Source of the DNA: Verrucomicrobiota bacterium | Lineage (GTDB): Bacteria; Verrucomicrobiota; Verrucomicrobiia; Limisphaerales; Fontisphaeraceae | Assembly: GCA_037139415.1 (NCBI GenBank) | Contig: JBAXGN010000061.1 | Span: 1 to 37,989 of the forward strand | Reading direction: 5' to 3' | DNA length: 37,989 nt | Made by a program: the position numbers and the translations under genes | Part shown: piece by piece, positions 3,175-29,847 of the stretch | Layout: each line of letters opens with the position of its first letter | Position numbering within the stretch: position 1 is the first letter of the stretch | The notes under the pieces: generated by a model | Databases searched by the model: none | The model's input: only the letters and a program-made list of their open reading frames with translations | What the model was told of the DNA's origin: nothing

Positions 3175-3226
3175 CGCCGTTAAATTAGAGATTGCCAAAC
3201 GCGCCGGGCGCAATACCGTTGCGCCC

Positions 3227-6748: not shown

Positions 6749-6767
6749 AGTTCAATAGCAGTTTAGG

Positions 6768-7190: not shown

Positions 7191-7191
7191 A

Positions 7192-8604: not shown

Positions 8605-8653
8605 TGTCGGTGTCTTGTGTATATGATCCAGGGTTGGTTACGTGGCACTTATT

Positions 8654-9627: not shown

Positions 9628-10839
9628 CTACCTATCAATCGGCCCCTTTAACAGGAAGCCTTTGACGTCTGCCTTGTAATCTTTCTTCACATCTTCTTTG
9701 ATGTTCACTTTGTATCCGCTCTCGCTGAACATCTTCGCAACGCCCTCAATCCGTTTGACTTCAGCGTCCGTGAGTTTGCGATCATTTTCCAGGTCTTGCA
9801 AGTAGCGCAGGTTGTCTTTCCAGCGGCGGTAAGCCTCTTCGGTCATTTGCATGGAGACAATTAGTACCTGTTTATCAAAGCAGTTGACATGCATCTCTTG
9901 CGGCTTGGAACCTTCGCGGCTGAAACGGATTTTATGAATGCCCGGCGTGACATTGAAAACTCCGGGCGCGGAGCCGATGCTTAGGCCATCCAACTCCACC
10001 ACCACATCCAGCGCCTGCACTTCGGATTTGGCATCCAGCATCATGGCCCGTCCATCGGGCGCGATACGCATCAAGGGGACGGTGATCGGCACGTTCACCA
10101 AGTCGTTCATACGGGTTTGGATGGTGATTTCCACCAGCTTCGGCTTATCAGCGGTGACCATTTGGATGTCCGCCTTGCGTTTGCGGATGCCCTCGGCGAC
10201 CAGGGTGGCGGCTTCATCCAGCAATTGGTTGACGGTTTCGTCGTTAAACGAGGTGTGCAAGGTATCGGTGTTCCGGATCGTTTTGGTAACCGTGATGGTG
10301 TCTCCGGTGAACGCGCCGCCTTGCCACGACTCCAGCACTTTATAACTTACACGGAGGGTATGGATGTAGTTGACCGTCTTGAGACGCAATGTCTTGTCCT
10401 CGAAATCGCGCGTTTCCGTGCCAAAGGTGGTCAAAGACACGAATAACACCATGTCCGCGCCCATGTTTTGGGCCAGGCGGGTAGCTGAAGACTGACTGCT
10501 CAACAGGTCATCCACTTGGGAACGAAATGCTTCCAGCGAATGCACTTTAGGATCATTCGGGCTGGCATACGTGTTCATGGCATTTACCACGGTTTCACGA
10601 CTGAGGACGCGAAACCCGGCGTCTGCCACCCGACTGCTGACCAAATCTTCCAACACGGCAACCTTGTCATTCAACCGGGCACCTGCGCGGTTCTCCACGA
10701 TGATGCCCGCTTTCTTTGCGTCTTGCGCTTGCAGTGCGAAGGTCAGGAAGCCAGCCAGGGCCAATCCGAGAATAGTCCAGCCGAGATTTCGGCCCTGGAC
10801 GGCCCAATTGCCAGTTTTCATGGAGAACATGTTCATCAT
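9628..10839 (-). CDS. Exported protein with CsgG-like N-terminal half and PEGA-like domain
   Basis: 403 residues from the ATG at 10839; ATGs at 10830 and 10821 are alternative starts, and the last would leave a tidier signal peptide (core TILGLALAGFLTFALQAQ). Residues about 40-140 follow the CsgG/LpoB pattern: AGIIVENRAGARLNDKVAVL, GFRVLSRETVVNAM, then TRLAQNMGADMVLFVSLTTF. Residues about 265-330 resemble a PEGA surface domain (VVVELDGLSIGSAPGVFNVT then PGIHKIRFSREGSKPQEM). The C-terminus is charged and helical (YRRWKDNLRYLQDLENDRKL). PEGA domains often occur in cell-surface and periplasmic proteins. It probably partners with the CsgG-family protein encoded 41 bases downstream; that is an inference from operon position. 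Confidence 0.75.
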   Translation of the reverse strand: MMNMFSMKTGNWAVQGRNLGWTILGLALAGFLTFALQAQDAKKAGIIVENRAGARLNDKVAVLEDLVSSRVADAGFRVLSRETVVNAMNTYASPNDPKVHSLEAFRSQVDDLLSSQSSATRLAQNMGADMVLFVSLTTFGTETRDFEDKTLRLKTVNYIHTLRVSYKVLESWQGGAFTGDTITVTKTIRNTDTLHTSFNDETVNQLLDEAATLVAEGIRKRKADIQMVTADKPKLVEITIQTRMNDLVNVPITVPLMRIAPDGRAMMLDAKSEVQALDVVVELDGLSIGSAPGVFNVTPGIHKIRFSREGSKPQEMHVNCFDKQVLIVSMQMTEEAYRRWKDNLRYLQDLENDRKLTDAEVKRIEGVAKMFSESGYKVNIKEDVKKDYKADVKGFLLKGPIDR

Positions 10840-11353: not shown

Positions 11354-12127
11354 TTAGGGCTGGATCATCGCCATGTTGATGCGATATAGGTCGGTAACGG
11401 CCCACAGGTTGACCGGATACAGACAGGTGCCGTACCGCAAATAGCGCACGCTGCCATCCACAAAGGCGCAATTGGATCCACCACCTTGATTTTTCACACT
11501 GGTATTATGCCGATGATAGTCCATTTCCTCCAGATCGTTTCCGCCACGCTGGTCAATGTCCATGTGAACGTCGCCCGATTCGGTTAACTTTTCCCCGAAA
11601 ATGATGGTTTCGGTGGGATAGGGAATCCCGTTTTCTGGAATGCCATGCGGCCAGAGATGATCCATGTATTTTTGATAATCTGCAGGAGCCAGATTGGTCT
11701 GGAAATAGTCATTCCACCCGTTGACGAGGTAACTGCGTGGTGCATCAAAGGCCGTGTAATTGGCATTGGTGGCAAAAAATTGTGCCGGCGGCACCGAGTC
11801 ATCCGGGCAGCGTAACAACGTCAGGTTCTGATAATACGGGTACAGATAATTCATCCAGAATGCACCGTAGCGCGGGGTGAACTCCCCCTCGTAATCATCG
11901 GCATACATGCGTTCAGAAAGAGCCAATTGGCGCATGCCGTTGACGCACATGATGCGCCGGGCACTCTCTTTGGCACGCGCCAAAGCCGGCAAGAGCAAAC
12001 TGGCCAGAATGGCGATGATGGCGATTACCACCAATAGTTCGATCAAGGTAAACGCCCGTTTGCCACGGCTAACCGGCGTGGTCACCGAACCACGCTGCCA
12101 AAAATGATATATACCTGCCGGTTTCAT
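11354..12127 (-). CDS. Type II secretion/pilin-like pseudopilin (prepilin with H-X9-DG-type C-terminus)
   Basis: 257 residues. After a 24-residue basic leader ([10 protein letters not shown] to RGKRA) comes the type III signal [20 protein letters not shown] with the usual Phe+1/Glu+5 pattern, so a prepilin peptidase should cut just before the Phe. The helix continues [20 protein letters not shown], the hallmark of the DUF1559-like pseudopilins that are present in many copies in Verrucomicrobia and Planctomycetes. The globular part includes [12 protein letters not shown] and a closing [11 protein letters not shown] motif. It may help to build a pseudopilus, or may be a surface protein using this export route. 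No other secretion genes are near it. It is upstream of the lipoprotein operon with 87 bases between them. Confidence 0.9.
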
Positions 12128-12316: not shown

Positions 12317-15300
12317 TTATGGCAAACGTAGTAGGCGGAAGAAACCGTGGCCGTTGGTGGTGATATTGATGGGCAGATGATACACCCCGCCGGTGGCAAC
12401 AAAGTTATCCAAAACTGTCCAGTTTCCGGAAAGATCATCCAGGAATTGAGCCTGATAGGTGAAGCCTTGGAAAGTACGGCAATTCAAGTTCAGGTTACCA
12501 TTGGTGGCTGTGCTGCTAAAGGAAAGCGGTGGCAGTTTCAGGAAGACACTAAAGGTTTGGGTATCACTGAGCGGCGGCACTCCATTGTCAGTCACTCGCA
12601 CGGTAATCACATTGGTTAAATCCTGTCCCGGTAATGGCGACCAGCTGAACACCCCATTGCTGGCATTGATGGTGGCATTGGTGGGGGCGGATAGCAGGCT
12701 GAAGGTGAGTATATTGGTCGGAATGTCCGGGTCGGTGGCAGTGACTTGCACCATTAAGCTGACGCCTTCCTCTCCGACTTGGTTGGCCAAGTGGGTAAGG
12801 ACTGGTGGCAGGTTGGATTCCAATACATCAATCGTCACCCACTGAGTGGCGCTGAGTGGCGGGATGCCATTATCCGTCACTCGCACACCAACGAGGTAAT
12901 TACCAGGGCCTTGGGCTTCGCTGGGTGTCCAGGCGAAGACACCGTTGGAGGTATTGATGGTGGCGTTGGTAGGGGCGGATAACAGCGAGAATATGAACGA
13001 TTGAGCTGGCAGGTCGGTATCGGTCACCAGGTTAGTGAAGCGCAACACTTGTTCCTCGATGATCACAAAGTAGTTGGTCGGCACGACCAGGATTGGGACG
13101 CTATTGGTCTTCAGTACCATGATATTGAAGGACCGGAAATCACTTAGCGGCGGCAGGCCATTATCCGTTACCCGTACGGTGATGGTATAATTGGTTCCCC
13201 CTTGGATTTCCGTTGGCGTCCAGGTGAATAAGCCGGTATCGGATTGGATTACGGCACCGGTGGGAGCGACTGGGGCCAACGAGAATACCAGATTCTGGGC
13301 GGGAACATCGGCGTCGGTGGCGGTGATCGTCAAATTAAAGGGGAGTTCTTCGATGATGGTTTGATCCGGTATCACGCCAGGTTGCGGCGCATGGTTGGCA
13401 GGAATAACCACCACGTCAATGGTTTGAGTGGCACTCAGACTGGGTATGCCGTCATCATACACCATCACTATAATGGGATTGGTGCTGGTGGCCGTGCCCA
13501 ACGACGGAGTCCAAGTCAGCACTCCTGAGTTGGTGTCCAGCATTACGCCGACTGGGGCGGATAACAATGCGTAGAATCGCTGATTGGGTGGCAGGTCGGG
13601 ATCCATAGCCTGGTTGGTAAAGACCAAGGTCGAAAGTTCCTGGATCACCACATTCGCCAGATTGTTGGTGAAGATTGGGGCGCGGTTGACCTCCAGAACC
13701 ACCACAGTTACGGTTTGAGTGGCGCTTAACGGCTGCACTCCACTATCGGTGACCACAATGCCAAAGACGTTGGTACCCGGTCCCTGGGCTTCGGTGGGGG
13801 TCCAGGTAAAGACCCCGTTCGAGGGATTGATGGAGGCATTTGTAGGGGCGGCGTCCAGAGAGAAAGTCAAAATTTGCGCCGGCAGATCGGAATCCGTGGC
13901 GAAGTTGGTGAAGGTCAACAACTGTTCCTCCGGTGTCACAAAATAGTTGGTCGGGACCGTCAGCACTGGTGTACTATTGGTTTTCATCACCATGAGGTTG
14001 AAAGACTGGGCATCACTCAAAGGCGGTGTTCCATCATCAGTAACCCGCACTCCAATCACATAGTTGCTGCCGCCCTGCGACTTGGTTGGGGTCCAGGAGA
14101 ACAGCCCCGTGTTGGATTGAATGATGGCCCCGGTTGGCGCTCCTGGTTCGAGCGAGAAGGTCAAGGTCTGGGCTGGCAGATCCGGATCGGTTGCGGTAAT
14201 CAACCAATTGAACGGGATGCCTTCAAACGCTGTCCGGTTGTTCAAGTTGGAGAATTTAGGCGGCTGATTCACCTCCCGGACGATGACGACAAAACTTTGA
14301 GTTACGGTAATGGGGGGATAGCCATTGTCCGAAATCGCCACTTGGATAAAATTGGAACTCGGGCCTTGCGCTTCGGTGGGGGTCCACTGAAGCCAGGCCC
14401 CGGCGAATAACGTCATGCCCTCGGGGGCGGATGCCAACTGGAAGGTTAGGATGTCATTCGGATCAGGATCGGTGGCTGAAAGAATCATTTCAAACGGTTT
14501 CAGTTCATCGGTGTACCACACCGGTTGGACAGTGAGCACGGGAGGATAATTGGCGGGTACTACCACCATGGTGATGGACTGCGTGGCACTCTGGGGTGGC
14601 TGGCCGTTATCGGTGACGCGCATGACAATGGTATTGGTGGTGGTTGCCGAACCCAACGCCGGGGTCCACGTCAATACCGCTGAGTTAGCATCCAGTGTCA
14701 CTCCTGATGGCGCAGACAACAGTTCATACGTCAGCGTATTGGTTGGCAGATCGTTATCACTTGCCCGATTGGTAATCGTCAGTGTAGCCAGTTCGCGCAC
14801 GGTCAAGTTGGTCCAGGCATTGGTGAAGTAAGGCGCGCTATTCACTTCATTCACGACGATGACAAAACTCTGGGTGGCGCTTAACGGGGGTGTTCCATCA
14901 TCGGTCACACAGATGCTTATCAGGTTGGTGCTGGGGCCTTGTGCTTCGGTGGGAGTCCACGTAAAGATGCCATTGGTTGAATTGACCACCGCGTTCGTCG
15001 GAGCGGAAACGAGTGTAAATATCAGCTTATTCGCCGGCCAATCCGGATCACTTGCCAGGTTGGTAATCACCAGTGTGGTCAACTCATCCATGACCTGGTC
15101 GGCTATCGGTGTCAGGGTGGGGGCGCGATTCACCTCGTGGACATAGAGCGTGAAGCTCTGGGTGACGCTTAATGGTGGGGTACCGTTATCCGTCACCGCG
15201 ATGGTAATGTGATTCGTGCCGGGGCCTTGCATTTCGGTGGGTGTCCAAGCCATTACGCCGTTATTCGTGTTTAATTGGAATCCCGGCGGCGCTGAAACCA

Positions 15301-18300
15301 GCGAGAATATCAGCGTTTGAACCGGCATATCTGGATCGGAAGCGTAATTGGTGCCTTGCCAGAGCACCATCTCATCTATCGTTTGCGAGGCCGGTACTGA
15401 CAGTTGTGGTGGGTCACTGGCGGCGGTTACAAACACCAGCACAGATTGCGTTGCGCTCAGGCTGGGTTGGCCATCGTCATACACCCGTATCACTACGGTG
15501 TTGCTTGAATTGGCGGCCCCGAGCGGCGGTGTCCAAATGACCACGCCGGTATTGGTATTCAGAGTCATTCCACTGGGAACTGACAACGGCTCGAAGGTCA
15601 GGCGGTTGGTTGGAATATCATCATCCGTGGCGTAGTTCGTAAATGTCAGGGTGGAAAGTTCCTTCACAAACAATACGCCTGGGTTGTTGGTAAAATAGGG
15701 CGTACTGTTCACTTCCCGTACAATGATCTGGAAACTTTGAGTGGCACTGAGCGGGGGTAGCCCATCATCGGTCACAGCGATGCTTACCAGGTTGGTGCTA
15801 GGGCCTTGGGCTTCGGTGGGCAGCCACGAGAACACACCGGTGACTGGATTCAAACTGGTATTCGTGGGGCCACTCAATAGCCTAAAGGTGAGGTTATTGG
15901 CAGGCCAATCCGCATCCGTCGCATGATTGGTGACCCACAGTGTGGTCAACTCATCCATGACGATATTGGTGATGAGTGCCAACGTTGGTGCCTGGTTGAC
16001 TTCATGCACCACCACGGTGAAAGCCTGGGTGGCACTTAAAGCTGGAACACCATTATCCGTCACCATGACAGTGATTGAGTTGGTGGATGGCCCCTGGGTT
16101 TCGGTGGGCGTCCACGACAAGATTCCAGAGTTGGTATTTATTGTGACCCCGGTGGGAACAGCCAACAAGCCATACGTCAATACTTGGGCAGGCAGATCGG
16201 GATCAGTGGCTGGAACGGCAAAGGTCCAGAGCGCGTTCTCATTGATGTATTGAGCGTCAATTGGAGAAATGACTGGTGGTGAATTCGGCGGCAGTACCTT
16301 CACCTGGAAGGTTTTGGCGTCGCTCATCGGTGGTACTCCATTGTCGGTAACCCTGCCTGTAATCGTGTAGGTGATGCCCGCTTGCAAGGGTTGCGGTGTC
16401 CATGAAAAACCCCCGGTTACTGAATCAACCGTAGCACCTGTCGGGGCATTGGTATCCAACGAGAAGGTCAGGGTCTGTGGTGGCCGATCCGTATCCACGG
16501 CAGAGAACGTGCAAGTAATCAAAGCGCCCGCCGAATTGGTGAAGCTCGGGATGGCTGCCAGGGTTGGCTTGGTATTGAGATTTGCGAAGACATTAGCGGT
16601 TCCTGGGGTGGCATTGGTCATGGAGAACACATTGGTGGAACCATCTGGATAGCGTCCTTGGCTGATATCACTGGTTTGTGCACCAAAAGTCACTGTGTCA
16701 ACGGGTGAACCATCTGGAGCAAACAGTCCGATGTAGGCACCGGATTTAGTGAGTTTGAAGTTCGCGTGCAAATTCGGCAGGTTGGTGGAATTTTGGGCGT
16801 CCAATTTATCGGCCCAGACAAGGTAATAGCCGCCAGGGGGTATGGTATAACCATTGGGAATCTTGAATAAGAAATTATTGGTCGTATAACGGGTCAGGTA
16901 ATAACCGCTCAAATCCGCCGTATTAGTACCATAGTTGTATAGTTCAAACCAGTCATCCCACTTGTTGTTTAACGGATTCAGGAGAGTCCGGGTATTGCCA
17001 GCCATCCATTCGTTGATACGCACGGTAAGCGGCAGAAAAGAGCCATTATTATTCGTTCCAGGAGTCACATAATAGAAGGTTTTCCGATCAAATAACTGGC
17101 CATCCGGACAGGAACCAAAGGAATAACGGGGCAACATGTTGGAATAGTTCAGGTAATCCAGAATGCGCTGATCCTGGACGAGCGCAATCGAGCCGTTCGT
17201 GGGATTCAACCGGAAGCTGGTATGCAGCACAGTACCGGTGTTCAATTCAGGATGCCCATCGGCAAAAATGATTTTGAATTCTCCTGGGGCGATGACCGTG
17301 CCGGTAGGGAACGCCCATTCGTTGAGGTTGGTATAACTGTTGGCCAAATAATAGCCATTCAGCGATAAAGTGTTGGTGTCATTGTTGTATAATTCAATCC
17401 AAGGCTGTGGCGTGCCGGTGTTATCTTTGAAACCATCCGGGTTGTTCGGCTGGACTTCGTTGAGCCAAACCAAGGGATAGGGTGCAATGGTTCCCGCCAC
17501 TGAATTCGTGGCACCCGGGGTGAAGCTGGCAATGGCAGCGTCGTCGCTCCAGTTACTAACTCGGGCGGTGTCCTGGGCCGCATCAATCAACTGTAACGCC
17601 TGCCCGGAGCCGGGAGTGGCAGCCATGGATGGCCAAGGGGCGATGGTGTCGTACTTAACTTTATCAATAATCACGTCGAGATTGGTGGTTACCCCCAACT
17701 TGACCAGCGTCAGGGTTTCACCATCTGACTGCAAGGTTCCGGGAAACTGGGCAAAGGGTGTGATATTGGTCCCATAGGCCTGTTGGAAGGCATTGGTGTC
17801 CATGGCCAGCACGAGGAAGCTGCGCGGTCCCAGCAAGGTGCCCGCCGGGAAATCGTACCCCACACCTTTAAGTCGGTGGTTGGATAAATCAAAGCTGGTG
17901 TTGGTGGAGCGGTTGAACAACTCCACATAACTGGCGTTGCTCACGGACGGGTTAAACATGATTTCATTGATCACCAGGAAGCCGGCTTCGGGATCAATAT
18001 TATTCGTCACATTCAAAACCAGACTAACCAGTGCATTGGTTAGCGGATTACCCCATTGGTCATAGCCTTGGATTTTAACCAGGTTGGTACCGCGATTCAG
18101 AACCACGTTCAGGCTCCAGTTGGTATAATTAGTCGCCCAAGTTACCGGATAATCCGTCCCATTGATGTAAATGCCGCGCACATTCACGGGCGCAGCACCG
18201 GTGATGGTAATCAAGTTGTTATTGGTCTCGAGATATAAAGGGGTAGCGACATTGAACGTATTGGTCAGTCCGACTAACTGACTGCGGATATAGGCATTTC

Positions 18301-21300
18301 TGCCAGCCACATATACTTTATTGGTAGTGATGCCGTTTGGGTCATAGCTGACGTTGTTGGCCTGAAACACCGCAATTCTTGCATCCATTTCAGGGTCGAG
18401 ATAGGCATTGTTAAAATAGAGATCAATCAATTCCTGGAGGGCGCGTAGATAGGCACGCCGGAATTCCGGCACATTATATAGCGCGGTGATCCGGGCATCA
18501 GCGGTGTTAAAAAGGGACTGATTAGTGGTGCGACTGCCAAAGCCCAAGGACCAATCCACATCATAGGGAATGACCTCAACCCGATTGAATGCCGGCAGGT
18601 ATAAGGAATTATTTTTGCCGCGCTCAAAACCATACGAGTCGAAGTTCCCTACCACGCGTTGAACGGAGAACTCCCGGGCCCATTGATCCAGGTTGGCCAC
18701 CGAATTGAACAATGGATAGTTGATTGGGGCGGCATCCACTGAGGTTGGGCTGGCGGCGCACAACAAACGGTAGAAATTGGTATAGGATATCACTGAGTCA
18801 CTTGGTCCATAGCCACGCTTTTGCCACTGGTAGCGGTAGCGTGCCGTATCCAGCACGTTGGAAACCCCATTGACCGTAATATACCGGCGGGTTAAATCGG
18901 CGTCGTTATTACTGAACGAGGTGGCGACATCATTGAATTCAAACCAATCATCCAACTTAAATAATTCGCCGCCGGTATCGCCGGAGTACCATTCGCCAAT
19001 CAAATCGCCATCGGGGCGCTGGGTATCTTCCAAAACAAAGTTTCCAGCCACAGCACTAATTGCACTGCGTTGGGTGCCATTCATAAACAAGTGAACATAG
19101 CGCCGCTGGTTATATGAAATTCCGAGCTTCCTAAATAGAATGTGGGGAATTTGCTCCGTGAGCCCCACGGGATCTGATCCACTGCTGCCACTGCCGTTTC
19201 CTGGCAGATCCACGGAAATGCCGCTGGCTCCCATTACCATATCATAATCGGGCAACCCGATGTCATAATCGCACCGACTGGATCCACCCGGCCCGGTGGT
19301 TTGATTGGGCCGGTGAAAAGCACTGCCCGAATAGCGAGGGGTTGCATTGTAAACCACCCGATAGTCGTTGTACACAAAGGTGCCATCCACGCCGCAGTTG
19401 CTGCGGGGTTCGCGACTGGCCCAGCGATTGGAAGAGCTGAGCGTCGCCCACAGATGGTAGGTGGGGAAGGTCCCGCGCATTTGCAACTCGCCCCAGCGCA
19501 CCACGCATTCTCGTGAATACGAATCGTTCGGGAAGCAACGGTCCAGCGGTGGCGTGGGAAAGACATCCTTCGGGAAAACGCTGGCGGCGCCCAGTCCATC
19601 CACCGCTTGCAGGTAAAAGGCGGCCACCGCATTCGTGGCTTGTCCGGGGAGCATGCCGGTATAGATACCGTCGCCTGCCACTGCGTCACCGTTCAATCCA
19701 TTATCGGTCATTGGCACGCTGATGAAATTGGTGGCGGGATCAATGCGATACATCAGGTTCAAAGCGGAAATCCCATCCGGATCACTGACGCGCGCGGTGA
19801 CCAATACGTTTTGATTGGCTGCTGGCAAGACGGGGGCATGCACCACCTGGTAGATGGCCGGACCGGTATTGGGCAACGCGCGGCTGTTGGGGGCGCCCGG
19901 AGATCCAAGGTCCAAGGGCACATCCAGCCTGGCTCCCGCCTCAAGGGTGCCGCCATGAACGCGCAATAAAATTTCCGGCCAACCGTGCAACCACCTTGCT
20001 TTGGCGCGGATGGTAATGGCATTGGTAGAATATGCTTTTGGACTGAAGTTGGGGGATTTGATTTTGTTGGGTCCGGTGTCGCCACGGCAGGCGCCACGAA
20101 TATGGAGACAGTTGCCACCGTCATAGCCGCTACCAACCTCAATGGTGGATTGATCATAGCCGCCCTGATTCATCCAGTAGTTGGTGACGGCATTGATGAA
20201 ACTGGTGTTACCCGATAAGGCCAGCGTGACATTTGTCAACACCACATCCTCAAACGTCCCATACGAGCCCAGTAAATTGTTAGCAGGGTCGTTGGCATTA
20301 TAAACCTCGATCTCATCCACTAGGCACTCACCGGGGTCCAATAAGTACACGTGGAGGTTGTCATTTGTCCATGCGGAGTTTGGTTCGCCCATCGTGGCGG
20401 TGTAATCAATGAAGGTCCATTGGCTCTTGGCGGTTTCATCGCTGTCCGCCCAGTTGGCGGCAAATTGATTATCGCTATGCGGGTCCACCAGTTCCAAGCT
20501 GCTACCGCCACCATTGGCCCAGGTTCCCCAATTTCCGCCACGGCCGTAGGTTAACTCGTTTTCCGCCACCCAGATAACATTGGTTGTCAATTGCCCAAAG
20601 GTATTGGTCTTGATTGCCAAATCAGGCATCAGCAAGGAGACATGTTCCCCACTGCCGGCAAGCGATCCGCTGAAGTCCCCCACCGTGTTAAACGTGTTTA
20701 GGGTGCCAGGATAGTGCGCCAGCAGGTTCGTCAGGTTCTTGGCCACTACCAGGTAGCCATCGGGCTGAATGATCGAGTTGGCCGGGAAGGTGAAACTGAT
20801 GCCGTCGGTTAACTGCCAACCGCTGAGATTCACCGCTGTCGAACCACGATTGTACAATTCCACATACTGATCATCCGAGTTGCCGGAGATGGGTTTGTAC
20901 ATGATTTCGTTGATCACGATGCTTTGCAATAGTGGGCCGGAGTTGTTGGTGCCGGGGGTAGGCGTGGTTAGAATGCGGAAGGAATCGGCGCCATCAGGTG
21001 TGCGCCCGGTGGATATTCCCAGCAACTGTCCGCCGAATGCCATCGCATCCAGAATGCGTGTATGGTTGGAATTGGCAAAATATACGATTTCACCATCCTG
21101 GCTGAGCCCGAATCCGAGCTGGTTGCGATCATACCACAGAAAACCGCCCCCCGGAATAATGGTTGCAGCAGGCAACCGGTAGGCGTTGGTGCTGTCAGGC
21201 AGGAGTAACGCACTGGCGTTGGCGCTGAGAACGCATCCGGAAATATCCACTGGTTGGGCGCTGCGGTTATACAATTCGATGTAGTCCAGATTGGTGCTGT

Positions 21301-24300
21301 CCGGACGCGCCATAATTTCATTAATCACCACTGACTTTTGCGGGTCGAGGCTATACCCATCATAACGCCCCGGCGTGCCGTCAATGCAGTCACTAGCCAT
21401 CCAAGCGCGCGGATCATTTTCTCCGTATGAAGGCCGGGCTAGCACCAGGGAATGACCGACGCCATCAGCCGCCAGAGGCCAGGGCGTTTTGTTGTCATAG
21501 TTGACCTCCAACAAGATTGCATCCGCAGCATTGCGCAAACGGATGGTGCCACCGCCAGATGGCAAACTGTTGGTGTATGGTCCGAGCACGCCGGTGATAC
21601 CGTAATAATTCTGTACTGCAATGGGATAGCGAGCCACCACCAGAAATCCGCCCCCCGGGATGAATGTGCCGGCTGGGAAATTGTAGTCCACACTGCCGCT
21701 TAACCGATAGCCAGTCAGATCTTCGGGCAGAGAGGCGCTATTGAAAATTTCTATAAATTGCAGACCGTTATTAGTCCCGGGTTGAGCAATGGGGCTATAC
21801 ATGATCTCGCTGAACGTCAATCCCGTTCGTCGTGAACTGGCACCCAACGGTTCCATCGGCAGTTTGGTGGAACTGCCCAAGCCGGTTCCCGTTGCATCCG
21901 TCAAATCTCTGAATTTAGCGGTCATCCCGTTGGTGGCGTTACAGCTACTGATCGCCATGCCGACATAGATGGGATTGCCCAAAGCCACGGTGGTGGCGGC
22001 GATCCTGGTCCAGTTCTGGCCGTCATAACTGCCATAGCCCTGGAAAAGGTCATTGGAGCGTTGCAGCCGCAGCCACAGGTAGGGAGAATTCACAGGCATG
22101 CTTCCCGCTTGCGTCGGCGCGGCCGTCGGCGTGGAACGCCATTGCAGGTTGCACCCATTCAGACTCGGGTAAGCCCAGACCGCCACAAACGCGCTGGCAT
22201 CCGCCAGGGCGGTGCGCGCCATCAGGCCGGCGCGCGACCACGGATTGGCAGGATTCAGGGTGTCAATCCGGGTTTTGAAATCGAAATTTCCCTGCCAACG
22301 TTGGGCGCCAAACAGAAATTGATCATTCGTACCCGTGCCCAGGAAACCTGCGCTGGTAATGGCCAAGTCCCAGCCATTGCTGTTCATTGAGTAACGCGCA
22401 TTGGCAGCGCTGCCGATCACAAATGGTGCATAATCCGAAACCAGGAAGGTCACCGCCGTGTTGCTGGCAATGGTATTGGGTGCCAATAAAGCCAAATCCT
22501 GTACACCACTAATCCAAAGCGTGTTGGTGCTACCCCATAGCATCGGGGTGGTTGTCAAAAATACAGTACGCCCATCCACATCAAGCTGGGCACCTACCAC
22601 GGTGACGCCATTATTGGCGACATAGTTTGAAAGGTTGGTTGCGGTCTGCGCGTTGACCGGTTCCGAGTAAATCACGGTGATATGGTTGGTTCCGGCTCCA
22701 AAACCATAGACGACATAAGGCGGAGTGGTGTCTGGCGCAATATTGGTTATCAAAGCGGGTACGGTATTGGAAATCGTATTGAGTGCGGTCAGTTGGCATA
22801 CCCATGGGAGATTTAAATCAGAAAGTTCCAGTGGTGGCGTGGTGAACATCGCATTGGTGGCGCCCGGAATGTTGGTCCCGTTTTCCTGCCACTGGTAGGT
22901 CAGGAAGATGCTGCCATAATTGGTCGTGACGCTCGCCGCGACATTAAAGGTCACCGGGCTGTGTTCTGTCCCGTTGGTATTCACCGGTTGACTGGCAAGG
23001 TTGATTCGCAAGCGCGGTACGTATGTTCCAAAAAGGGCAGGGGACATGGATGGCAGTGATAGTGTGGGAGTCGTATCGCCGGGCACGCGAACCGCCATTA
23101 ACAGGTAATCACTGCCATTGTTTTCTTTGAACAGGGTCTCAAAATAATAGCGATTGCCGGCCGTGAACGTGTTGGTCCACGAACGGACGTCACTATAATA
23201 GGCCTGCGCACCCGTGGCGCTTAATCGTGACTGCAAACCGGCGGGACTCTCGTTGGTACTGAAGAAGAGTTGGGCGTCATCGTCATTCATCAGGTAAACG
23301 ATGTGCGTGCCCGAGTTGGTCGGCACAAAATAGCCGGAGAGGCGCATCCCGTAACTATCCGCAAAACTCCGTGTCCCGCTCTGATTAGTGAACATGGTCT
23401 CGGCGATATTGGTGTAATTGATGAAGTCGGGCGAATAGGGATACTTGGTGCTGCCGGTCAGATTGGCCACTGACCCGCCGGTGATGTTGGTGTAGTATTC
23501 CCGTTTCAAATAGCCTGCCACATAACTGCCGGTGTCAAACGTAAGCACCGTGTTGGCCATGATGGAGTTGCTGGCGTAGGCTTTGTCTTTGACGCCATTG
23601 ATCGTGAACGAATAATTGCTTCCCTCCTGCTGGGGCGAGGTGGTGAGAAATACATTGGTGCCGCTCTTGATGATTGCGCCGGTAATCAAGAATCCATTGG
23701 TGCCCAAGTAATTTGCAAGATTGGTGGCCGTGGCGTCCGAAACCGGTTCGGAATAGGTGAGTAACAACCCATTGGTTCCGTAGGTTGTCCACCCAACGAC
23801 CGTGGGCGGAGTTAAATCCGGCGCGATATTGGTGACATACGCATTGGCCGAATTGGAGGAGCTAAACATCGAACTGACCACACAACGCCAGGCGTTGTTG
23901 GTATCGAAGACCGTCAAATTGGTGACGGTAAAGGTCAGGTTGGTGGCATTGGCGATGTTGGTGCCGTTTTTTTGCCATTGATAGCGGAGGAAAGGTTGTC
24001 CTGCCGATGGCATGGTGGTCGCACTCACAGAGAATGTCACTGAACCTAACTCGTTTCCACTGAGGCTGTATGGGCTGGCGATCACAAATGAATACGGCAT
24101 GGCGTACGTGCCATAAAGTAAATTGGTGATGGATGGCAGGACGGTAGTGTTGGTCGTAACTCCAGGTAGTCGCACGCCCACGCGTAGATAATCGTTGCCG
24201 GTGTTCTCTTTGAGCAACGCCTCAAAATAATAGCGGTTGCTGGCCACCAGGTCATTGGTCCAGCAATACGCGTCCCGGAAGACGGTGGAAGTGCCGAGAC

Positions 24301-26821
24301 TGGTGAAGCGTCTGACCGCGTTACTGGGGTACGAATTGGTCGCAAAATTGAACGCGGCCTCATCATCATTTGCCAGATAAAATACGAACGTGCCCGAGTT
24401 GGTGGGTACAAAGTATCCTGACAACCGCACACCATAGTAATCCGCGTAGTTGCTCACGCTTTCCGCCCAATTGGTATAGTACACCCGGTCGGGAAGATTG
24501 GGATAACGGGTGTTATTGGTGAGGTTGGCCACGGTGCTGCCGGTAATGTTCGTGTAGATTTCGCTCAGCAAAAAACCATTGGTGTAGCGCCATGCTTGAA
24601 AGGCGATGGTGCTGTTGGGCACCATCAGGTTGGTCTGTGCTGTGCTGTCGCGCACGTTGTTCACGGTAATGGTGTAATTGGTACCCTCGGCCTGCGGTGA
24701 CGTAGCCAGGTTTACGTTCGTGGAGAACTCCAACGTGGCCCCCAGAATTTGCAGGCCATTGTCAATCGCGTAATTAGCCAGGTTGGTGGCCGTGGATGCC
24801 AACAGTGCTTTGTTGAATACCAGTCTGGCGCGATAAATCTGGTTGCCCCCCCGTGCCGATAACACCACGGGGCCATCGATCGCCAAATTCACGCTGACCT
24901 GACTGGAATTGGTGCCCTCACCGCCGATGCCCAACCCAGAGACCACATAATAGTAGGTGTTCGAGTTGACCACGTTGGTGTCGGCATAGCTGGTGGTCGT
25001 GAGGTTGCTGACTGTGGTGTAAGGGCCGCCATTCACCAATGAACGCTTCAAATTAAAGCTGGTCGCGTTGGAAACCGTGTTCCAACTCAGGTTGATGACG
25101 TAATCCTTGTTGGTGGCCGTCAGGCCTGAGGGGGCAATCGGTGGGGCCTGCGGCATGGCGCTGGCCTGGCTGGAAATGGCTCCCTCCCCCGCAAGGCCAA
25201 CACCGGACACGACATAGTAGTACGTGACAAAATTAGTGACATCCGTGTCGGTGTAATTCGTGGCAGCCAATGTTGCCACGGTAAGATACGGCCCTCCATT
25301 GGTGATGGAACGCTTCAGATAGTAATTGGTGGCGTTCAGCGAACTGTTCCAAACGAGCGATACTTGTGCGTTGGTGGAAGTGGCGGTGAGTCCCAGCGGA
25401 GCCGGCGGCGGGGAACCGATGACCACCATTACTTCCAAAGAATTCGTCCCTTCACCGCCGATGCCCAGGCCCGATACCACATAGTAATAGGTGGTTCCAT
25501 AGACGGTGCTCACATCCGTAAAATTGGTCGTCGTCACATTGGTGATGACGGTGAACGGGCCATCGGTCACCGTGGCGCGCTTCACATTGTACGTGATGGC
25601 ATTGGTGGCGGTGTTCCAAATCAGCAAGGCACCGCCATTGGTGGAAATTCCAGTCAACCCCAACGGTGCTGGCGGTGGCCCATGAGGGGTGGCGACGGCT
25701 TGCAGAGAATTGGAACCTTCCCCGCCCGAGCCCAACCCGCTCACGACATAATAATAGGTTACGTCGTTGGTGAGGTTGGTGTCCGTGAAACTGGCGGATG
25801 CCAGGGTTTTGATGAGGCTGTAAGGGCCGCCAGTGGTCAGCGCGCGCTTGACGTTATAATTCGTGGCGCCAGTGGTGGTGCTCCACGTCAGGAGGACTTG
25901 CGCATTGGTCGCCGTTGCCACCAGGTTGGTGGGTGCGGCGGGAATCCCCAGCACGTTGAGGCGGGCGTTTAGCGTTACATTCGTTCCAAAACTGTTTGAA
26001 ACAACGCAGCGGTAGTACGTCTGATCATTCGTCATTGGCAGATTGGTCAAAGTCAGCGTCGCGTTAGTTGCGTTGGCGATGTTGTTGCTGTTGCGCTGCC
26101 ATTGATAGGCGGGTGCGAAAATATTGCCCACACTGATCTCGAAACTGGCATTGGAACTGGCCCAAGCCGTTTGGTTGGTCGGGTGGGCCGTGATGATGGG
26201 GGCGTATTGGAAGGTCAAATTGGTGTTGGGTATGGGCGGGGCGCCATTGGCCGGAACGGCATCACCGGGTCGCTGCCAGGTTACGCCCAGGTTGTCGGTG
26301 CCGCCACCGTTTTTCATGAGTGCTTCAAAATAATACAGCTTTCCCGCCGTGAGGGTCCGCCCGGAGGATTTTTGGTTTACTTGCAGCGGAGTGCCGGTAA
26401 CCACCCAATTCCTACTGGAACAATGGGACCATGCATTTGATACAGAGGCGATGATGATCTTATTAGTCGGGTTTTCATCCGTGCTCAGCAAAAAATCTCC
26501 AGAATCATTGGCCGAAAGGTAAAAGACATAACTGCCGCCAATCGGCGCTCGGATCCAGCCACGCAGCCGTACGCCAAACGCGCCTCCGAAATTGGTGACA
26601 TGTTCCAGCCCCCACGTGATGGTATTGGTGATATCAGGCGAATTCGGATATGTCGCCGCACTCGTCAGGTTCGGCACATCGGTGCCGGCAACATTGGTGT
26701 ACACCTCGCGAAAGATGCCATTGGTGGCCTGTCCATGGGTGGATGTGGCCAAGCCAAGGCACAGAAAAACAAAGCCAAAACAACCAGCCGGAAAGCAGGA
26801 TGACAATTTCATTCGTAACAT
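12317..26821 (-). CDS. Giant secreted protein: PA14, Ig, FnIII, lamin-tail, CotH kinase and 14 Ig/cadherin-like repeats
   Basis: 4834 residues in one uninterrupted frame; the ATG at 26812 is an alternative start. A signal peptide ends near THGQ (about 31). Approximate order: PA14 (36-205); Ig (208-292); four FnIII (293-647); then two copies of a block that includes PA14 and Ig (PA14 at 748-904 and 1108-1265), each closed by a Ca-free SwmB/Big5-like strand set; a DUF1349-like lectin fold (1456-1640); three lamin-tail domains (about 1670-1790, 1828-1930, 1964-2040); a CBM-like and Ig-like stretch; a CotH kinase domain (about 2430-2840); three more lamin-tail domains (2948-3018, 3114-3190, 3265-3341); fourteen repeats of about 96 residues (3416-4764); and a 70-residue tail ending in GFFRLLRLP. 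CotH landmarks include HILFRKLGISYNQRRYVHLF, GNFDSYGFERGKNNSLY and IPYDVDWSLGFGSRT, with candidate catalytic Asp residues in GNFD and YDVDW. It is probably a cell-surface or released adhesin or polymer-binding protein. The protein is rich in Thr-Asn pairs. Confidence 0.92.
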   Translation of the reverse strand: MLRMKLSSCFPAGCFGFVFLCLGLATSTHGQATNGIFREVYTNVAGTDVPNLTSAATYPNSPDITNTITWGLEHVTNFGGAFGVRLRGWIRAPIGGSYVFYLSANDSGDFLLSTDENPTNKIIIASVSNAWSHCSSRNWVVTGTPLQVNQKSSGRTLTAGKLYYFEALMKNGGGTDNLGVTWQRPGDAVPANGAPPIPNTNLTFQYAPIITAHPTNQTAWASSNASFEISVGNIFAPAYQWQRNSNNIANATNATLTLTNLPMTNDQTYYRCVVSNSFGTNVTLNARLNVLGIPAAPTNLVATATNAQVLLTWSTTTGATNYNVKRALTTGGPYSLIKTLASASFTDTNLTNDVTYYYVVSGLGSGGEGSNSLQAVATPHGPPPAPLGLTGISTNGGALLIWNTATNAITYNVKRATVTDGPFTVITNVTTTNFTDVSTVYGTTYYYVVSGLGIGGEGTNSLEVMVVIGSPPPAPLGLTATSTNAQVSLVWNSSLNATNYYLKRSITNGGPYLTVATLAATNYTDTDVTNFVTYYYVVSGVGLAGEGAISSQASAMPQAPPIAPSGLTATNKDYVINLSWNTVSNATSFNLKRSLVNGGPYTTVSNLTTTSYADTNVVNSNTYYYVVSGLGIGGEGTNSSQVSVNLAIDGPVVLSARGGNQIYRARLVFNKALLASTATNLANYAIDNGLQILGATLEFSTNVNLATSPQAEGTNYTITVNNVRDSTAQTNLMVPNSTIAFQAWRYTNGFLLSEIYTNITGSTVANLTNNTRYPNLPDRVYYTNWAESVSNYADYYGVRLSGYFVPTNSGTFVFYLANDDEAAFNFATNSYPSNAVRRFTSLGTSTVFRDAYCWTNDLVASNRYYFEALLKENTGNDYLRVGVRLPGVTTNTTVLPSITNLLYGTYAMPYSFVIASPYSLSGNELGSVTFSVSATTMPSAGQPFLRYQWQKNGTNIANATNLTFTVTNLTVFDTNNAWRCVVSSMFSSSNSANAYVTNIAPDLTPPTVVGWTTYGTNGLLLTYSEPVSDATATNLANYLGTNGFLITGAIIKSGTNVFLTTSPQQEGSNYSFTINGVKDKAYASNSIMANTVLTFDTGSYVAGYLKREYYTNITGGSVANLTGSTKYPYSPDFINYTNIAETMFTNQSGTRSFADSYGMRLSGYFVPTNSGTHIVYLMNDDDAQLFFSTNESPAGLQSRLSATGAQAYYSDVRSWTNTFTAGNRYYFETLFKENNGSDYLLMAVRVPGDTTPTLSLPSMSPALFGTYVPRLRINLASQPVNTNGTEHSPVTFNVAASVTTNYGSIFLTYQWQENGTNIPGATNAMFTTPPLELSDLNLPWVCQLTALNTISNTVPALITNIAPDTTPPYVVYGFGAGTNHITVIYSEPVNAQTATNLSNYVANNGVTVVGAQLDVDGRTVFLTTTPMLWGSTNTLWISGVQDLALLAPNTIASNTAVTFLVSDYAPFVIGSAANARYSMNSNGWDLAITSAGFLGTGTNDQFLFGAQRWQGNFDFKTRIDTLNPANPWSRAGLMARTALADASAFVAVWAYPSLNGCNLQWRSTPTAAPTQAGSMPVNSPYLWLRLQRSNDLFQGYGSYDGQNWTRIAATTVALGNPIYVGMAISSCNATNGMTAKFRDLTDATGTGLGSSTKLPMEPLGASSRRTGLTFSEIMYSPIAQPGTNNGLQFIEIFNSASLPEDLTGYRLSGSVDYNFPAGTFIPGGGFLVVARYPIAVQNYYGITGVLGPYTNSLPSGGGTIRLRNAADAILLEVNYDNKTPWPLAADGVGHSLVLARPSYGENDPRAWMASDCIDGTPGRYDGYSLDPQKSVVINEIMARPDSTNLDYIELYNRSAQPVDISGCVLSANASALLLPDSTNAYRLPAATIIPGGGFLWYDRNQLGFGLSQDGEIVYFANSNHTRILDAMAFGGQLLGISTGRTPDGADSFRILTTPTPGTNNSGPLLQSIVINEIMYKPISGNSDDQYVELYNRGSTAVNLSGWQLTDGISFTFPANSIIQPDGYLVVAKNLTNLLAHYPGTLNTFNTVGDFSGSLAGSGEHVSLLMPDLAIKTNTFGQLTTNVIWVAENELTYGRGGNWGTWANGGGSSLELVDPHSDNQFAANWADSDETAKSQWTFIDYTATMGEPNSAWTNDNLHVYLLDPGECLVDEIEVYNANDPANNLLGSYGTFEDVVLTNVTLALSGNTSFINAVTNYWMNQGGYDQSTIEVGSGYDGGNCLHIRGACRGDTGPNKIKSPNFSPKAYSTNAITIRAKARWLHGWPEILLRVHGGTLEAGARLDVPLDLGSPGAPNSRALPNTGPAIYQVVHAPVLPAANQNVLVTARVSDPDGISALNLMYRIDPATNFISVPMTDNGLNGDAVAGDGIYTGMLPGQATNAVAAFYLQAVDGLGAASVFPKDVFPTPPLDRCFPNDSYSRECVVRWGELQMRGTFPTYHLWATLSSSNRWASREPRSNCGVDGTFVYNDYRVVYNATPRYSGSAFHRPNQTTGPGGSSRCDYDIGLPDYDMVMGASGISVDLPGNGSGSSGSDPVGLTEQIPHILFRKLGISYNQRRYVHLFMNGTQRSAISAVAGNFVLEDTQRPDGDLIGEWYSGDTGGELFKLDDWFEFNDVATSFSNNDADLTRRYITVNGVSNVLDTARYRYQWQKRGYGPSDSVISYTNFYRLLCAASPTSVDAAPINYPLFNSVANLDQWAREFSVQRVVGNFDSYGFERGKNNSLYLPAFNRVEVIPYDVDWSLGFGSRTTNQSLFNTADARITALYNVPEFRRAYLRALQELIDLYFNNAYLDPEMDARIAVFQANNVSYDPNGITTNKVYVAGRNAYIRSQLVGLTNTFNVATPLYLETNNNLITITGAAPVNVRGIYINGTDYPVTWATNYTNWSLNVVLNRGTNLVKIQGYDQWGNPLTNALVSLVLNVTNNIDPEAGFLVINEIMFNPSVSNASYVELFNRSTNTSFDLSNHRLKGVGYDFPAGTLLGPRSFLVLAMDTNAFQQAYGTNITPFAQFPGTLQSDGETLTLVKLGVTTNLDVIIDKVKYDTIAPWPSMAATPGSGQALQLIDAAQDTARVSNWSDDAAIASFTPGATNSVAGTIAPYPLVWLNEVQPNNPDGFKDNTGTPQPWIELYNNDTNTLSLNGYYLANSYTNLNEWAFPTGTVIAPGEFKIIFADGHPELNTGTVLHTSFRLNPTNGSIALVQDQRILDYLNYSNMLPRYSFGSCPDGQLFDRKTFYYVTPGTNNNGSFLPLTVRINEWMAGNTRTLLNPLNNKWDDWFELYNYGTNTADLSGYYLTRYTTNNFLFKIPNGYTIPPGGYYLVWADKLDAQNSTNLPNLHANFKLTKSGAYIGLFAPDGSPVDTVTFGAQTSDISQGRYPDGSTNVFSMTNATPGTANVFANLNTKPTLAAIPSFTNSAGALITCTFSAVDTDRPPQTLTFSLDTNAPTGATVDSVTGGFSWTPQPLQAGITYTITGRVTDNGVPPMSDAKTFQVKVLPPNSPPVISPIDAQYINENALWTFAVPATDPDLPAQVLTYGLLAVPTGVTINTNSGILSWTPTETQGPSTNSITVMVTDNGVPALSATQAFTVVVHEVNQAPTLALITNIVMDELTTLWVTNHATDADWPANNLTFRLLSGPTNTSLNPVTGVFSWLPTEAQGPSTNLVSIAVTDDGLPPLSATQSFQIIVREVNSTPYFTNNPGVLFVKELSTLTFTNYATDDDIPTNRLTFEPLSVPSGMTLNTNTGVVIWTPPLGAANSSNTVVIRVYDDGQPSLSATQSVLVFVTAASDPPQLSVPASQTIDEMVLWQGTNYASDPDMPVQTLIFSLVSAPPGFQLNTNNGVMAWTPTEMQGPGTNHITIAVTDNGTPPLSVTQSFTLYVHEVNRAPTLTPIADQVMDELTTLVITNLASDPDWPANKLIFTLVSAPTNAVVNSTNGIFTWTPTEAQGPSTNLISICVTDDGTPPLSATQSFVIVVNEVNSAPYFTNAWTNLTVRELATLTITNRASDNDLPTNTLTYELLSAPSGVTLDANSAVLTWTPALGSATTTNTIVMRVTDNGQPPQSATQSITMVVVPANYPPVLTVQPVWYTDELKPFEMILSATDPDPNDILTFQLASAPEGMTLFAGAWLQWTPTEAQGPSSNFIQVAISDNGYPPITVTQSFVVIVREVNQPPKFSNLNNRTAFEGIPFNWLITATDPDLPAQTLTFSLEPGAPTGAIIQSNTGLFSWTPTKSQGGSNYVIGVRVTDDGTPPLSDAQSFNLMVMKTNSTPVLTVPTNYFVTPEEQLLTFTNFATDSDLPAQILTFSLDAAPTNASINPSNGVFTWTPTEAQGPGTNVFGIVVTDSGVQPLSATQTVTVVVLEVNRAPIFTNNLANVVIQELSTLVFTNQAMDPDLPPNQRFYALLSAPVGVMLDTNSGVLTWTPSLGTATSTNPIIVMVYDDGIPSLSATQTIDVVVIPANHAPQPGVIPDQTIIEELPFNLTITATDADVPAQNLVFSLAPVAPTGAVIQSDTGLFTWTPTEIQGGTNYTITVRVTDNGLPPLSDFRSFNIMVLKTNSVPILVVPTNYFVIIEEQVLRFTNLVTDTDLPAQSFIFSLLSAPTNATINTSNGVFAWTPSEAQGPGNYLVGVRVTDNGIPPLSATQWVTIDVLESNLPPVLTHLANQVGEEGVSLMVQVTATDPDIPTNILTFSLLSAPTNATINASNGVFSWSPLPGQDLTNVITVRVTDNGVPPLSDTQTFSVFLKLPPLSFSSTATNGNLNLNCRTFQGFTYQAQFLDDLSGNWTVLDNFVATGGVYHLPINITTNGHGFFRLLRLP
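12530..16575 (-). repeat. Fourteen tandem ~289-bp repeats encoding Ig/cadherin-like domains
   Basis: Each unit carries a core of the type GVFTWTPTEAQGP, followed by VTDNGxPPLSATQSF and a short linker ending in VNxAP. The motif recurs 14 times at a steady spacing of about 289 bases. Units 4, 7 and 11 share a variant core (WTPPLG, WTPALG, WTPSLG) and units 9 and 12 share QSNTGLFSWTP/QSDTGLFTWTP, so repeats duplicated in blocks. They resemble He_PIG/cadherin-like domains of secreted proteins. Confidence 0.88.
22440..24590 (-). repeat. Duplicated ~1.07-kb PA14-Ig-SwmB block in the giant gene
   Basis: Two successive blocks share the same order and many identical phrases: GYFVPTNSGTFVFYLANDDE and GYFVPTNSGTHIVYLMNDDD; NRYYFEALLKENTGNDYL and NRYYFETLFKENNGSDYL; LRYQWQKNGTNIANATN and LTYQWQENGTNIPGATN; then TIAPDxTPP and TATNLxNY strands. 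An earlier, more diverged PA14-Ig pair begins at residue 36. Confidence 0.8.
24880..25950 (-). repeat. Four tandem ~265-bp fibronectin type III units
   Basis: Four copies of an FnIII-like domain of about 88 residues share TNAQVxLxW, the segment NVKRxxxxGGPY, and YYYVVSGLGxGGEGxNS. They sit between the first Ig domain and the duplicated PA14 block of the giant gene. Confidence 0.85.
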
Positions 26822-28148: not shown

Positions 28149-28551
28149 GCCATCAAACTACCCTTTATCCTTTAATCCGCAAAACTAAATTCTCAGGTAT
28201 AAAATCAAGATCATGAGGGCAAAGAAATACACTTGCCCTCTGTGACAGAAAAATAGTTCAGCAGATTTGGATGAGCTTACTATAGTTTATTGTTGAGACA
28301 TGACTCTAGCGAGACTTCATTGCAATGGCTTGGTTATATCTACTTTGAATAAAGCGAGTTGTGAATAGTAGTCCCTTAAAATCTCCTTGAAACTGTTTGA
28401 GACCTGAGACTACCTGCCACAAAAACTTGTAACAAAACGGCGGCGGTTTGCGATTAGCGATTAGATGAACACCGCGACTGGAATCCGTATAACTGCATTT
28501 TGCCTGCAATCCAACTTGTCAGGCGCGGGGCGTTTTAGTACCTATTGCCTT
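28149..28551. other. 403-base divergent gap upstream of the sigma-factor operon
   Basis: No gene is supported. It contains a perfect 8-bp inverted repeat (28215-28222 with 28233-28240, ten-base loop) without a T-run, so a regulatory site is more likely than a terminator, and a tandem CGATTAG (28450-28463). Promoters for nfo and for the sigma-factor operon should lie here, but no box was clear enough to call. Confidence 0.45.
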
Positions 28552-29160
28552 GTGGAAGTAATTGATCTGAGCGCATTACAGCAGGGTGACGCGGATGCTT
28601 GGCAAGCCGCTTTTCGCTCCTTTTACCCCTATGCCTTTGCGGCGGCGCAACAAAAACTCACCAGTTTTCCCGGCGATGTTGAGGATGTGGCGATTGAAGC
28701 CCTTGAACAACTGGTGGACAAGGTCAAGGAATTGAGTTCTGCGGAGATGCTAAAGCCGATGCTGATCTGTATTGCTGAACGTCTGGCGATCAGTCATATC
28801 CGCGAACAGTTGGCCAAGAAACGCGGCAGCGGAAAGGTTGAATCGTTAAACAAGCCCGATGAAGATGTGATCGATCCACCCGATCCCCTGGATGCTTTGG
28901 ATCGGGTGCATCAATCGGAGTTGGCAGTTGTATTGGCTGGCCTGCAAAAGGATCTCAAGCCGGAATGGAATGATATAATACAGGATTTCTTCTTTGATCG
29001 GTTAAAATACGAAGAGATTGCGGCCAAGCGAAACCTGGCGGTGGGGTCGGTGGGCGTATATTTGAAGCGGGCCTTGGGCGTGCTTCAGAGCAAAATGAGT
29101 CAGCAACCTAAACTGCAAGCGGAACTCTTAACGCTGATCCGCTGCCTATTCTGCCTATGA
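28552..29160 (+). CDS. ECF-type RNA polymerase sigma factor
   Basis: About 202 residues from a GTG at 28552. The frame is open to an ATG at 28465, but those 29 residues are not sigma-like, and the family core starts at VIDLSALQQGDADAWQAAF, so GTG is preferred; neither start has a Shine-Dalgarno. Region 2 is FRSFYPYAFAAAQQKLTSFP and DVEDVAIEALEQLVDKV. Region 4 is WNDIIQDFFFDRLKYEEIAA and KRNLAVGSVGVYLKRALGVL, a helix-turn-helix for the -35 element. The linker (DEDVIDPPDPLDALD) is acidic. The stop overlaps the anti-sigma start by 4 bases (ATGA). It probably directs RNA polymerase to the promoter of this operon and perhaps others, held in check by the next gene's product. Confidence 0.9.
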   Translation: MEVIDLSALQQGDADAWQAAFRSFYPYAFAAAQQKLTSFPGDVEDVAIEALEQLVDKVKELSSAEMLKPMLICIAERLAISHIREQLAKKRGSGKVESLNKPDEDVIDPPDPLDALDRVHQSELAVVLAGLQKDLKPEWNDIIQDFFFDRLKYEEIAAKRNLAVGSVGVYLKRALGVLQSKMSQQPKLQAELLTLIRCLFCL

Positions 29161-29843
29161 ACGAGCAACGATTTTTTGATTTGGTGATGCAGGAAGGCGC
29201 CGGGCAGTTGAATGCGGCGGAACGGGAAGAATTGCAAGCATGGCTCACTACCCAGCCAAATGCCAAAGCGGAATACGCCAAGCTACAGGAACAGGCTCGA
29301 TTGGCTAAACAAGTCAGTCCGATGCTTCACGCCATGAACTACCCTGCTAAAGTTGAACTGCCGTTGTATGCAGAGGAACGGTTGAAGACGAAGGTGGTTC
29401 AGACCTTTGCCAGACCCGAACGACCTAAGCCAACCTGGTCATGGAAAATGTGGTTGGCGATGGCTACGTGCGTGCTCATGGTCGCGATTGTGGCTGTCCG
29501 CCAAGTACAGCCGTCGCAACCAGAAATCCAACTCGCTATGTTAGATACGATTGGTGGTGTGCGTGGGACAGGAGAAGACCCAACCAAAGCCATGACTAAC
29601 GCTGGTTTGGCTTCGACGCTGGTGACGTTCAGTGACAACGCAGCGGCAGCTAAATGGCGTGAACTAGATGCTAAGAAGCTGGTAGTCAAAGTCATATACG
29701 ACCGGGATCACGGTAAAGTAGACGTGCTATATCATGCCAAAGACCAGCCCGTGACCAAGTCGTTTTCCTTAACGGATGAGCAAGAGTTGCCGGGCGTGTT
29801 GCGGGAGGTTGGCAACTGGATTAAACAGCAGGGGCAGCGTTAA
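29157..29843 (+). CDS. Membrane-bound anti-sigma-factor-like protein
   Basis: 228 residues. The N-terminal cytoplasmic part (MNEQRFFDLVMQEGAGQLNA, then AEREELQAWLTTQPNAKAEY) has the helical layout of anti-sigma N-termini. One transmembrane helix follows (WLAMATCVLMVAIVAVR, about 97-113). The extracytoplasmic C-terminus (about 115-228) is a small mixed domain ending in PGVLREVGNWIKQQGQR. No zinc-binding HXXXCXXC motif is seen, so it is not a ZAS-type factor. It overlaps the sigma gene by 4 bases and lies 4 bases before the CHAT-gene start, which supports one operon. It likely binds the sigma factor and releases it on an envelope signal, but that signal is unknown. Confidence 0.82.
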   Translation: MNEQRFFDLVMQEGAGQLNAAEREELQAWLTTQPNAKAEYAKLQEQARLAKQVSPMLHAMNYPAKVELPLYAEERLKTKVVQTFARPERPKPTWSWKMWLAMATCVLMVAIVAVRQVQPSQPEIQLAMLDTIGGVRGTGEDPTKAMTNAGLASTLVTFSDNAAAAKWRELDAKKLVVKVIYDRDHGKVDVLYHAKDQPVTKSFSLTDEQELPGVLREVGNWIKQQGQR

Positions 29844-29847
29844 GGCT

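Follow-up and report, generated by a model that had tools for sequence, protein, structure and literature searches.

Comparison of a giant protein encoded in the genome of a Verrucomicrobiota bacterium (order Limisphaerales) with its relatives in other genomes indicated that its CotH kinase-fold domain and the six lamin-tail domains (LTDs) around it, three on each side, make up one inherited core, and the recognition of that core from sequence comparisons is what is new here. The window, that is, the whole stretch of DNA that was analysed (37,989 nucleotides), holds the gene for this 4834-residue protein. A search of the literature found no paper on a six-LTD core and none on LTD-CotH giants in Verrucomicrobiota. 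The core would represent a combination of LTDs and CotH that has been inherited whole, not reshuffled.

The order of three LTDs, CotH and three further LTDs, which the earlier note on this DNA had read from the single protein, is present in many other genomes. With an LTD model built up from LTD3 of the giant itself, we found exactly three LTDs before CotH in 53 of 54 complete frames and LTDs on both sides of CotH in 49 of the 54, the number after CotH being three in 32 frames, five in seven, two in six and one in four. Independently, Pfam identified six LTDs together with CotH in three relatives, one of which is a Lentisphaerae bin. For the 38 proteins with the three-plus-three arrangement, some of which derive from frames cut at a contig end, the nearest relative of each LTD was the LTD at the same position in every case (228/228), and the LTD tree required five changes of position label, which is the minimum for six labels, versus at least 136 when the labels were shuffled. 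The core of these 38 proteins is 1639–1914 residues long and its domains show similar levels of conservation (mean pairwise identity 0.36–0.51). The sequences flanking the core can be as short as tens of residues or exceed 1,400, and they differ in their modules (PA14, discoidin, LamG); those before it are of sugar-binding types and those after it are Ig/cadherin arrays, both variable, with the protein studied here representing the extreme case, as it has the longest ends in the 38-protein set. Based on this positional orthology, the even conservation of the domains and the variability of the flanks, we conclude that the core most likely arose in a single assembly and was then inherited whole while its ends were exchanged. 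The fixed positions of the LTDs also suggest that each of them makes a particular contact.

Open frame and domain architecture

The giant gene lies on the minus strand as one uninterrupted frame of 4834 codons, read from 26821 down to 12317 (Table 1). The longest other frame wholly within this region encodes at most 202 residues, so the giant frame is not due to chance. The earlier note had given the same coordinates and a single 14.5-kb frame of 4834 residues, and both stood, with the strand, which it had left unstated, now assigned. A frameshift or chimaera was considered and rejected, as no stop interrupts the 4834 codons and other studies have yielded many genomes with the same core.

The domain order that had been proposed (PA14, Ig, FnIII, three LTDs, CotH, three LTDs and ~14 cadherin-like repeats) was likewise recovered by Pfam and by repeat analysis within the protein. 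Pfam matched LTD (PF00932) in six stretches with 264.8 bits (curated cut-off 34.3) and CotH (PF08757) with 38.9 bits (curated cut-off 23.8), as well as PA14, whose best score was on the third unit, Ig_3, and He_PIG with 11 stretches. The repeat analysis resolved three PA14-like units, four FnIII units and ~14 cadherin-like repeats of ~97 residues. Several further elements had been missed previously: the second and third PA14-like units, a weak DUF1349-like stretch (residues 1577–1640, below cut-off), the region between LTD3 and CotH, the Ig domains on both sides of CotH, and the C-terminal domain of ~72 residues. Across the 38 proteins, 26 of the 246 columns of the region between LTD3 and CotH are at least 95% invariant, and its counterpart in one relative (L048) has weak, sub-cut-off similarity to CBM_4_9. 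Judging from its N-terminus, which was read by eye, and its domain content, the protein is predicted to be exported.

Table 1. Features of the giant gene and its product; positions are those of the window.
Feature	Residues	Positions	Strand	Basis
Whole gene (4834 aa)		12317..26821	-	One open frame, ATG start, stop 12317-12319
Putative Sec signal peptide	~1-31	26729..26821	-	N-terminus read by eye
PA14-like unit 1	38-211	26189..26710	-	Self-similarity to unit 3, E 6.9e-78
Ig domain	208-289	25955..26200	-	Pfam Ig_3 2.0e-9
Four FnIII-like repeats	294-645	24887..25942	-	Within-protein repeat analysis
PA14-like unit 2	754-924	24050..24562	-	Within-protein repeat analysis
PA14-like unit 3 (then Ig-like, residues 1301-1389)	1107-1286	22964..23503	-	Pfam PA14/GLEYA and repeat analysis
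LTD1	1662-1766	21524..21838	-	Pfam, LTD survey, positional orthology
LTD2	1825-1919	21065..21349	-	Pfam, LTD survey, positional orthology
LTD3 (Pfam best stretch 1967-2063)	1965-2067	20621..20929	-	Pfam, LTD survey, positional orthology
Conserved region between LTD3 and CotH	2070-2315	19877..20614	-	Conservation across 38 proteins
Ig-like domain directly before CotH	2316-2444	19490..19876	-	Model residues 70-198; Z 12.7 to Ig-like part of PPAD
CotH kinase-fold domain	2450-2851	18269..19474	-	Pfam PF08757; profile vs 5jd9 E 1.4e-11; structure Z 33.8
Catalytic-loop motif GNFDSYGFERGKN	2725-2737	18611..18649	-	D2728 and N2737 invariant
YDVD	2753-2756	18554..18565	-	D2754 invariant, D2756 not
Ig-like spacer after CotH	2852-2945	17987..18268	-	Read from sequence; aligned in relatives
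LTD4	2948-3042	17696..17980	-	Pfam, LTD survey, positional orthology
LTD5	3113-3218	17168..17485	-	Pfam, LTD survey, positional orthology
LTD6	3266-3371	16709..17026	-	Pfam, LTD survey, positional orthology
~14 cadherin/He_PIG-type repeats, period ~97 aa	3412-4762	12536..16588	-	Pfam and repeat analysis
C-terminal beta-sandwich domain, candidate sorting domain	4763-4834	12320..12535	-	Alignment A3, genome matches, model

The CotH domain and its counterparts

An AlphaFold model of the CotH region (pLDDT 87.5, pTM 0.87) had as its best structural match the Bacillus CotH kinase (5jd9/5jda, Z 33.8/33.7), with 340 of the 358 residues of 5jd9 aligned over both lobes at an rmsd of 3.1 and 16% identity. 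The next PDB entry, with a Z of 12.7, matched the separate Ig domain only. That Ig domain also filled the 50 best rows when Foldseek was used alone, CotH not being among them; structural re-alignment of the Foldseek candidates ranked CotH first. When a profile of the relatives (A1) was compared with the PDB, the sole match was CotH (5jd9; E 1.4e-11), again across both lobes (chain 7–355).

The residues D2728, N2737, D2754 and K2622 are identical in 81 of 81 sequences, although for D2728 and K2622 this invariance is partly recruitment-biased, since the 80 loci behind the counts were gathered with two search patterns, one containing D2728 and the other K2622. The same residues were invariant in 20 of 20 sequences gathered by whole-domain similarity, without motif patterns. 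Profile alignment placed D2728 and D2754 against the Asp residues of QNFD and PWD in 5jd9, which are 23 residues apart there and 26 here owing to three extra residues. Two Asp residues with a spacing of 23, D228 and D251, are each needed for the activity of B. subtilis CotH (PMC7821199), and we infer that D2728 and D2754 are their counterparts from the motif and the 23-residue spacing in 5jd9, the B. subtilis sequence not itself being part of the alignment. Candidate catalytic Asp residues had earlier been sought in GNFD and YDVDW; the right ones are D2728 and the first Asp of YDVD, D2754, whereas the second, D2756, is kept in 55 of 81 sequences and replaced in 26, and is therefore unlikely to be essential.

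The possibility that alignment would find the catalytic residues of CotH missing had also been raised; the domain proved to have the fold in full, and its catalytic residues are conserved. A degenerate pseudokinase, suggested by the low Pfam score, was rejected because the relatives have the same divergence and keep the catalytic residues, and all 16 relatives that were scanned or aligned match Pfam CotH. Based on sequence and model, the domain appears to be a complete atypical kinase in its fold and has most likely kept the ability to transfer phosphate. Our literature search found no report on the activity of any CotH from Verrucomicrobiota. Three phage-encoded proteins in BFVD (A0A8S5SI55, A0A8S5P140 and G3MA94) have the fold of the model, and two of them are annotated as CotH kinase.

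An extracellular CotH with LTDs had been thought unusual by the earlier note, a view that our results do not support. CotH is common in the order, occurring in 33 of 39 related genomes with up to 45 matches each, and the secreted combination of LTD and CotH is already known from Cthe_0239 of the C. thermocellum cellulosome, which is listed as LTD, LTD, Fn3, CotH (PMC6083626). Cthe_0239 resembles the giant in being an extracellular (in the giant, predicted) protein with LTDs and CotH. It is, however, a 117 kDa component of a clostridial cellulosome with no LTDs listed after CotH, whereas the giant has six LTDs, a core of ~1,700 residues and, among its Pfam matches, no dockerin. The Bacillus CotH family (PF08757; 5jd9/5jda) shares with the giant the two-lobe fold, the catalytic Asp, the loop Asn and the second Asp, and has a role in spore-coat assembly with CotB and CotG as substrates; in the giant, by comparison, the domain is embedded between the LTDs of a predicted secreted protein. 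Fuma_00096 of the planctomycete Fuerstia is, like the giant, a very large protein of a PVC bacterium with LTD and Ig-like domains, but no CotH was reported for it (PMC5177795).

A 605-residue query around the CotH domain found relatives in 46 of 58 related genomes and, among the matches listed, ~100 had 34–51% identity across the greater part of the query. The subfamily of LTD3-type CotH domains occurs chiefly in the order of the source genome and, at a strict threshold, was found in 8 of 115 genomes across the phylum (own included). The named relatives are mostly Verrucomicrobiota bins, several of them labelled Limisphaerales, Pedosphaera or subdivision 3. Two bins with a six-LTD core (L079, L081) are labelled Akkermansia muciniphila, labels and binning being taken as given. 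The source genome itself has 12 Pfam CotH matches. Four of its paralogues (L013, L014, L015 and L016) are like the giant in having an LTD, CotH, several LTDs and an Ig array, but differ in having one or few LTDs before CotH and not three, in being closer to the canonical Pfam CotH model and in carrying Ig_3/I-set arrays in place of cadherin-like repeats. Two further giants of this genome, L159 (G000:C8:20076-21725) and L158 (G000:C23:17270-18679), were not listed by the Pfam CotH search and were found by the A2 profile; both keep the D..N..D residues.

Proposed role and rival explanations

We propose, with a probability of roughly one half, that the giant is a very large exported protein of the cell surface or matrix, with a central LTD-CotH core in which CotH is probably a working phosphotransferase, and with flanks that serve for binding, as a stalk and as a tag. 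Its functional heart would be the fixed core of ~1,700 residues (LTD1-LTD2-LTD3-spacer-Ig-CotH-Ig-LTD4-LTD5-LTD6), in which CotH would transfer phosphate and the six position-specific LTDs would hold or present it. Potentially, the protein is bound to surfaces or glycans by its variable N-terminal modules, PA14 and FnIII in this case and discoidin or LamG in relatives, and the Ig/cadherin array forms a stalk, while the C-terminal sandwich probably serves as a tag for sorting or anchoring. The export, catalytic activity and substrate of the protein, and the roles of its LTDs and C-terminal domain, are what we infer in this proposal. That the core is shared by many related bacteria would suggest an extracellular enzyme made for phosphate transfer. 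The ideas put forward in the earlier note, namely phosphorylation of surface proteins, LTDs as scaffold and an adhesin, are all plausible. A more far-reaching version, which we hold to be rather unlikely, is that LTD3-CotH-LTD3 represents a machine dedicated to phosphate transfer outside the cell and occurring mainly in one Verrucomicrobiota branch, in which a fixed frame of six position-specific LTDs surrounds an active CotH that phosphorylates surface proteins or glycans; its placement there would depend on a C-terminal sorting domain, so far undescribed, that dozens of proteins in each genome use.

That the catalytic residues are so strictly conserved speaks for catalysis. Little free ATP is present outside cells, which poses an energy problem for a secreted kinase, and this lack of ATP, together with there being no conserved partner gene, calls for caution and leaves non-catalytic ligand binding as a serious, if somewhat unlikely, rival. 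CotH would then be an extracellular ligand-binding or adhesive module, much as Mucorales fungi are proposed to use their CotH invasins, and its acidic residues would hold a ligand or metal ion without transferring phosphate. The adhesin-like nature of the host protein (PA14, Ig, FnIII and cadherin-like arrays), the lack of a conserved substrate gene nearby and the presence of CotH folds in phage-encoded proteins would all agree with such a role. A mere binder, however, need not keep all four of the invariant residues, two of which are Asp residues at sites whose loss inactivates B. subtilis CotH (PMC7821199). Possibly, the energy problem is solved by CotH acting before or during export, either in the cytoplasm or in a periplasm supplied by the cell, on itself or on co-exported proteins, and being inert outside. 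A Sec-type substrate, however, normally folds only after export. We consider this explanation improbable, even with the precedent of B. subtilis CotH, which phosphorylates itself and works while the spore coat is being assembled (PMC7821199).

More improbable still is a place for the giant in a cellulosome-like assembly that degrades or binds polysaccharides, in which CotH and the LTDs would be accessories. Both Cthe_0239 and CseP, which is also a CotH protein, are cellulosomal (PMC6083626), and the sugar-binding types among the N-terminal modules of the relatives would fit such an assembly, but dockerin, cohesin and glycoside hydrolase domains are absent from the giant (P0001; Pfam) and no neighbour family is conserved. 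Should the preferred reading of CotH as a working phosphotransferase be correct, a large environmental group would phosphorylate its cell surface or matrix. Little is known about kinases outside bacterial cells, and bacterial LTDs are without a settled function, theirs being under discussion (PMC6085458). Six LTDs that each keep their position around one CotH across many genomes offer a well-defined unit for expression, structure determination and assays.

C-terminal domain and neighbouring genes

The last ~72 residues of the giant form a separate domain of ~70 aa with the motif ..GxxYRVEYxDxL....W.....RFYRV.., which was modelled as a six-stranded sandwich of the common Ig/Fn3-like type. This domain had 76 matches in its own genome (E 0.01), and 29 of the best 30 of these end no more than six residues from the stop codon. 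It was found in 19 of 20 genomes (own included) in 18–94 copies each. From its position and abundance it looks like a sorting domain and, if it is a sorting signal, it would identify, in each genome, dozens of exported proteins to which current libraries give no label. Assignment to a known sorting family was rejected, as Pfam had no match for five of the C-terminal domains, NCBIfam searched with alignment A3 had only one, sub-cut-off match, to choice_anch_C, and the fold reached a Z of 7.5 at best, which is too weak to name a relative. PF14349 (SprA of the type IX translocon) had no match in the 20 genomes, but it had none in any control genome either.

Clustering of the 416 flanking ORFs of the 80 loci gave no conserved neighbour family beyond pilin-like genes, which were present at 10 of the 80 loci with neither side nor strand fixed. 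A pseudopilin partner was rejected, since pilin motifs are not enriched close to the giants, with 3 in 284 kb there and 8 in 311 kb at greater distances, which argues against a link between them. In the window, a type IV-pilin-like (N_methyl/DUF1559) protein is encoded right downstream of the giant gene (11354-12127, minus strand). A cluster on the minus strand at 6146-9586 comprises genes for an LpoB-like protein (6146-6748), a DUF1425 protein (6768-7190), an unassigned 470-aa protein (7192-8604) and a CsgG-like protein (8654-9586), with another unassigned protein encoded beside it at 9628-10839. On the other side of the giant gene, positions 28465-32994 of the plus strand hold an ECF sigma factor gene, a small gene of unassigned product and then the gene for a TPR-CHAT (caspase-like peptidase fold) protein of 1072 aa.
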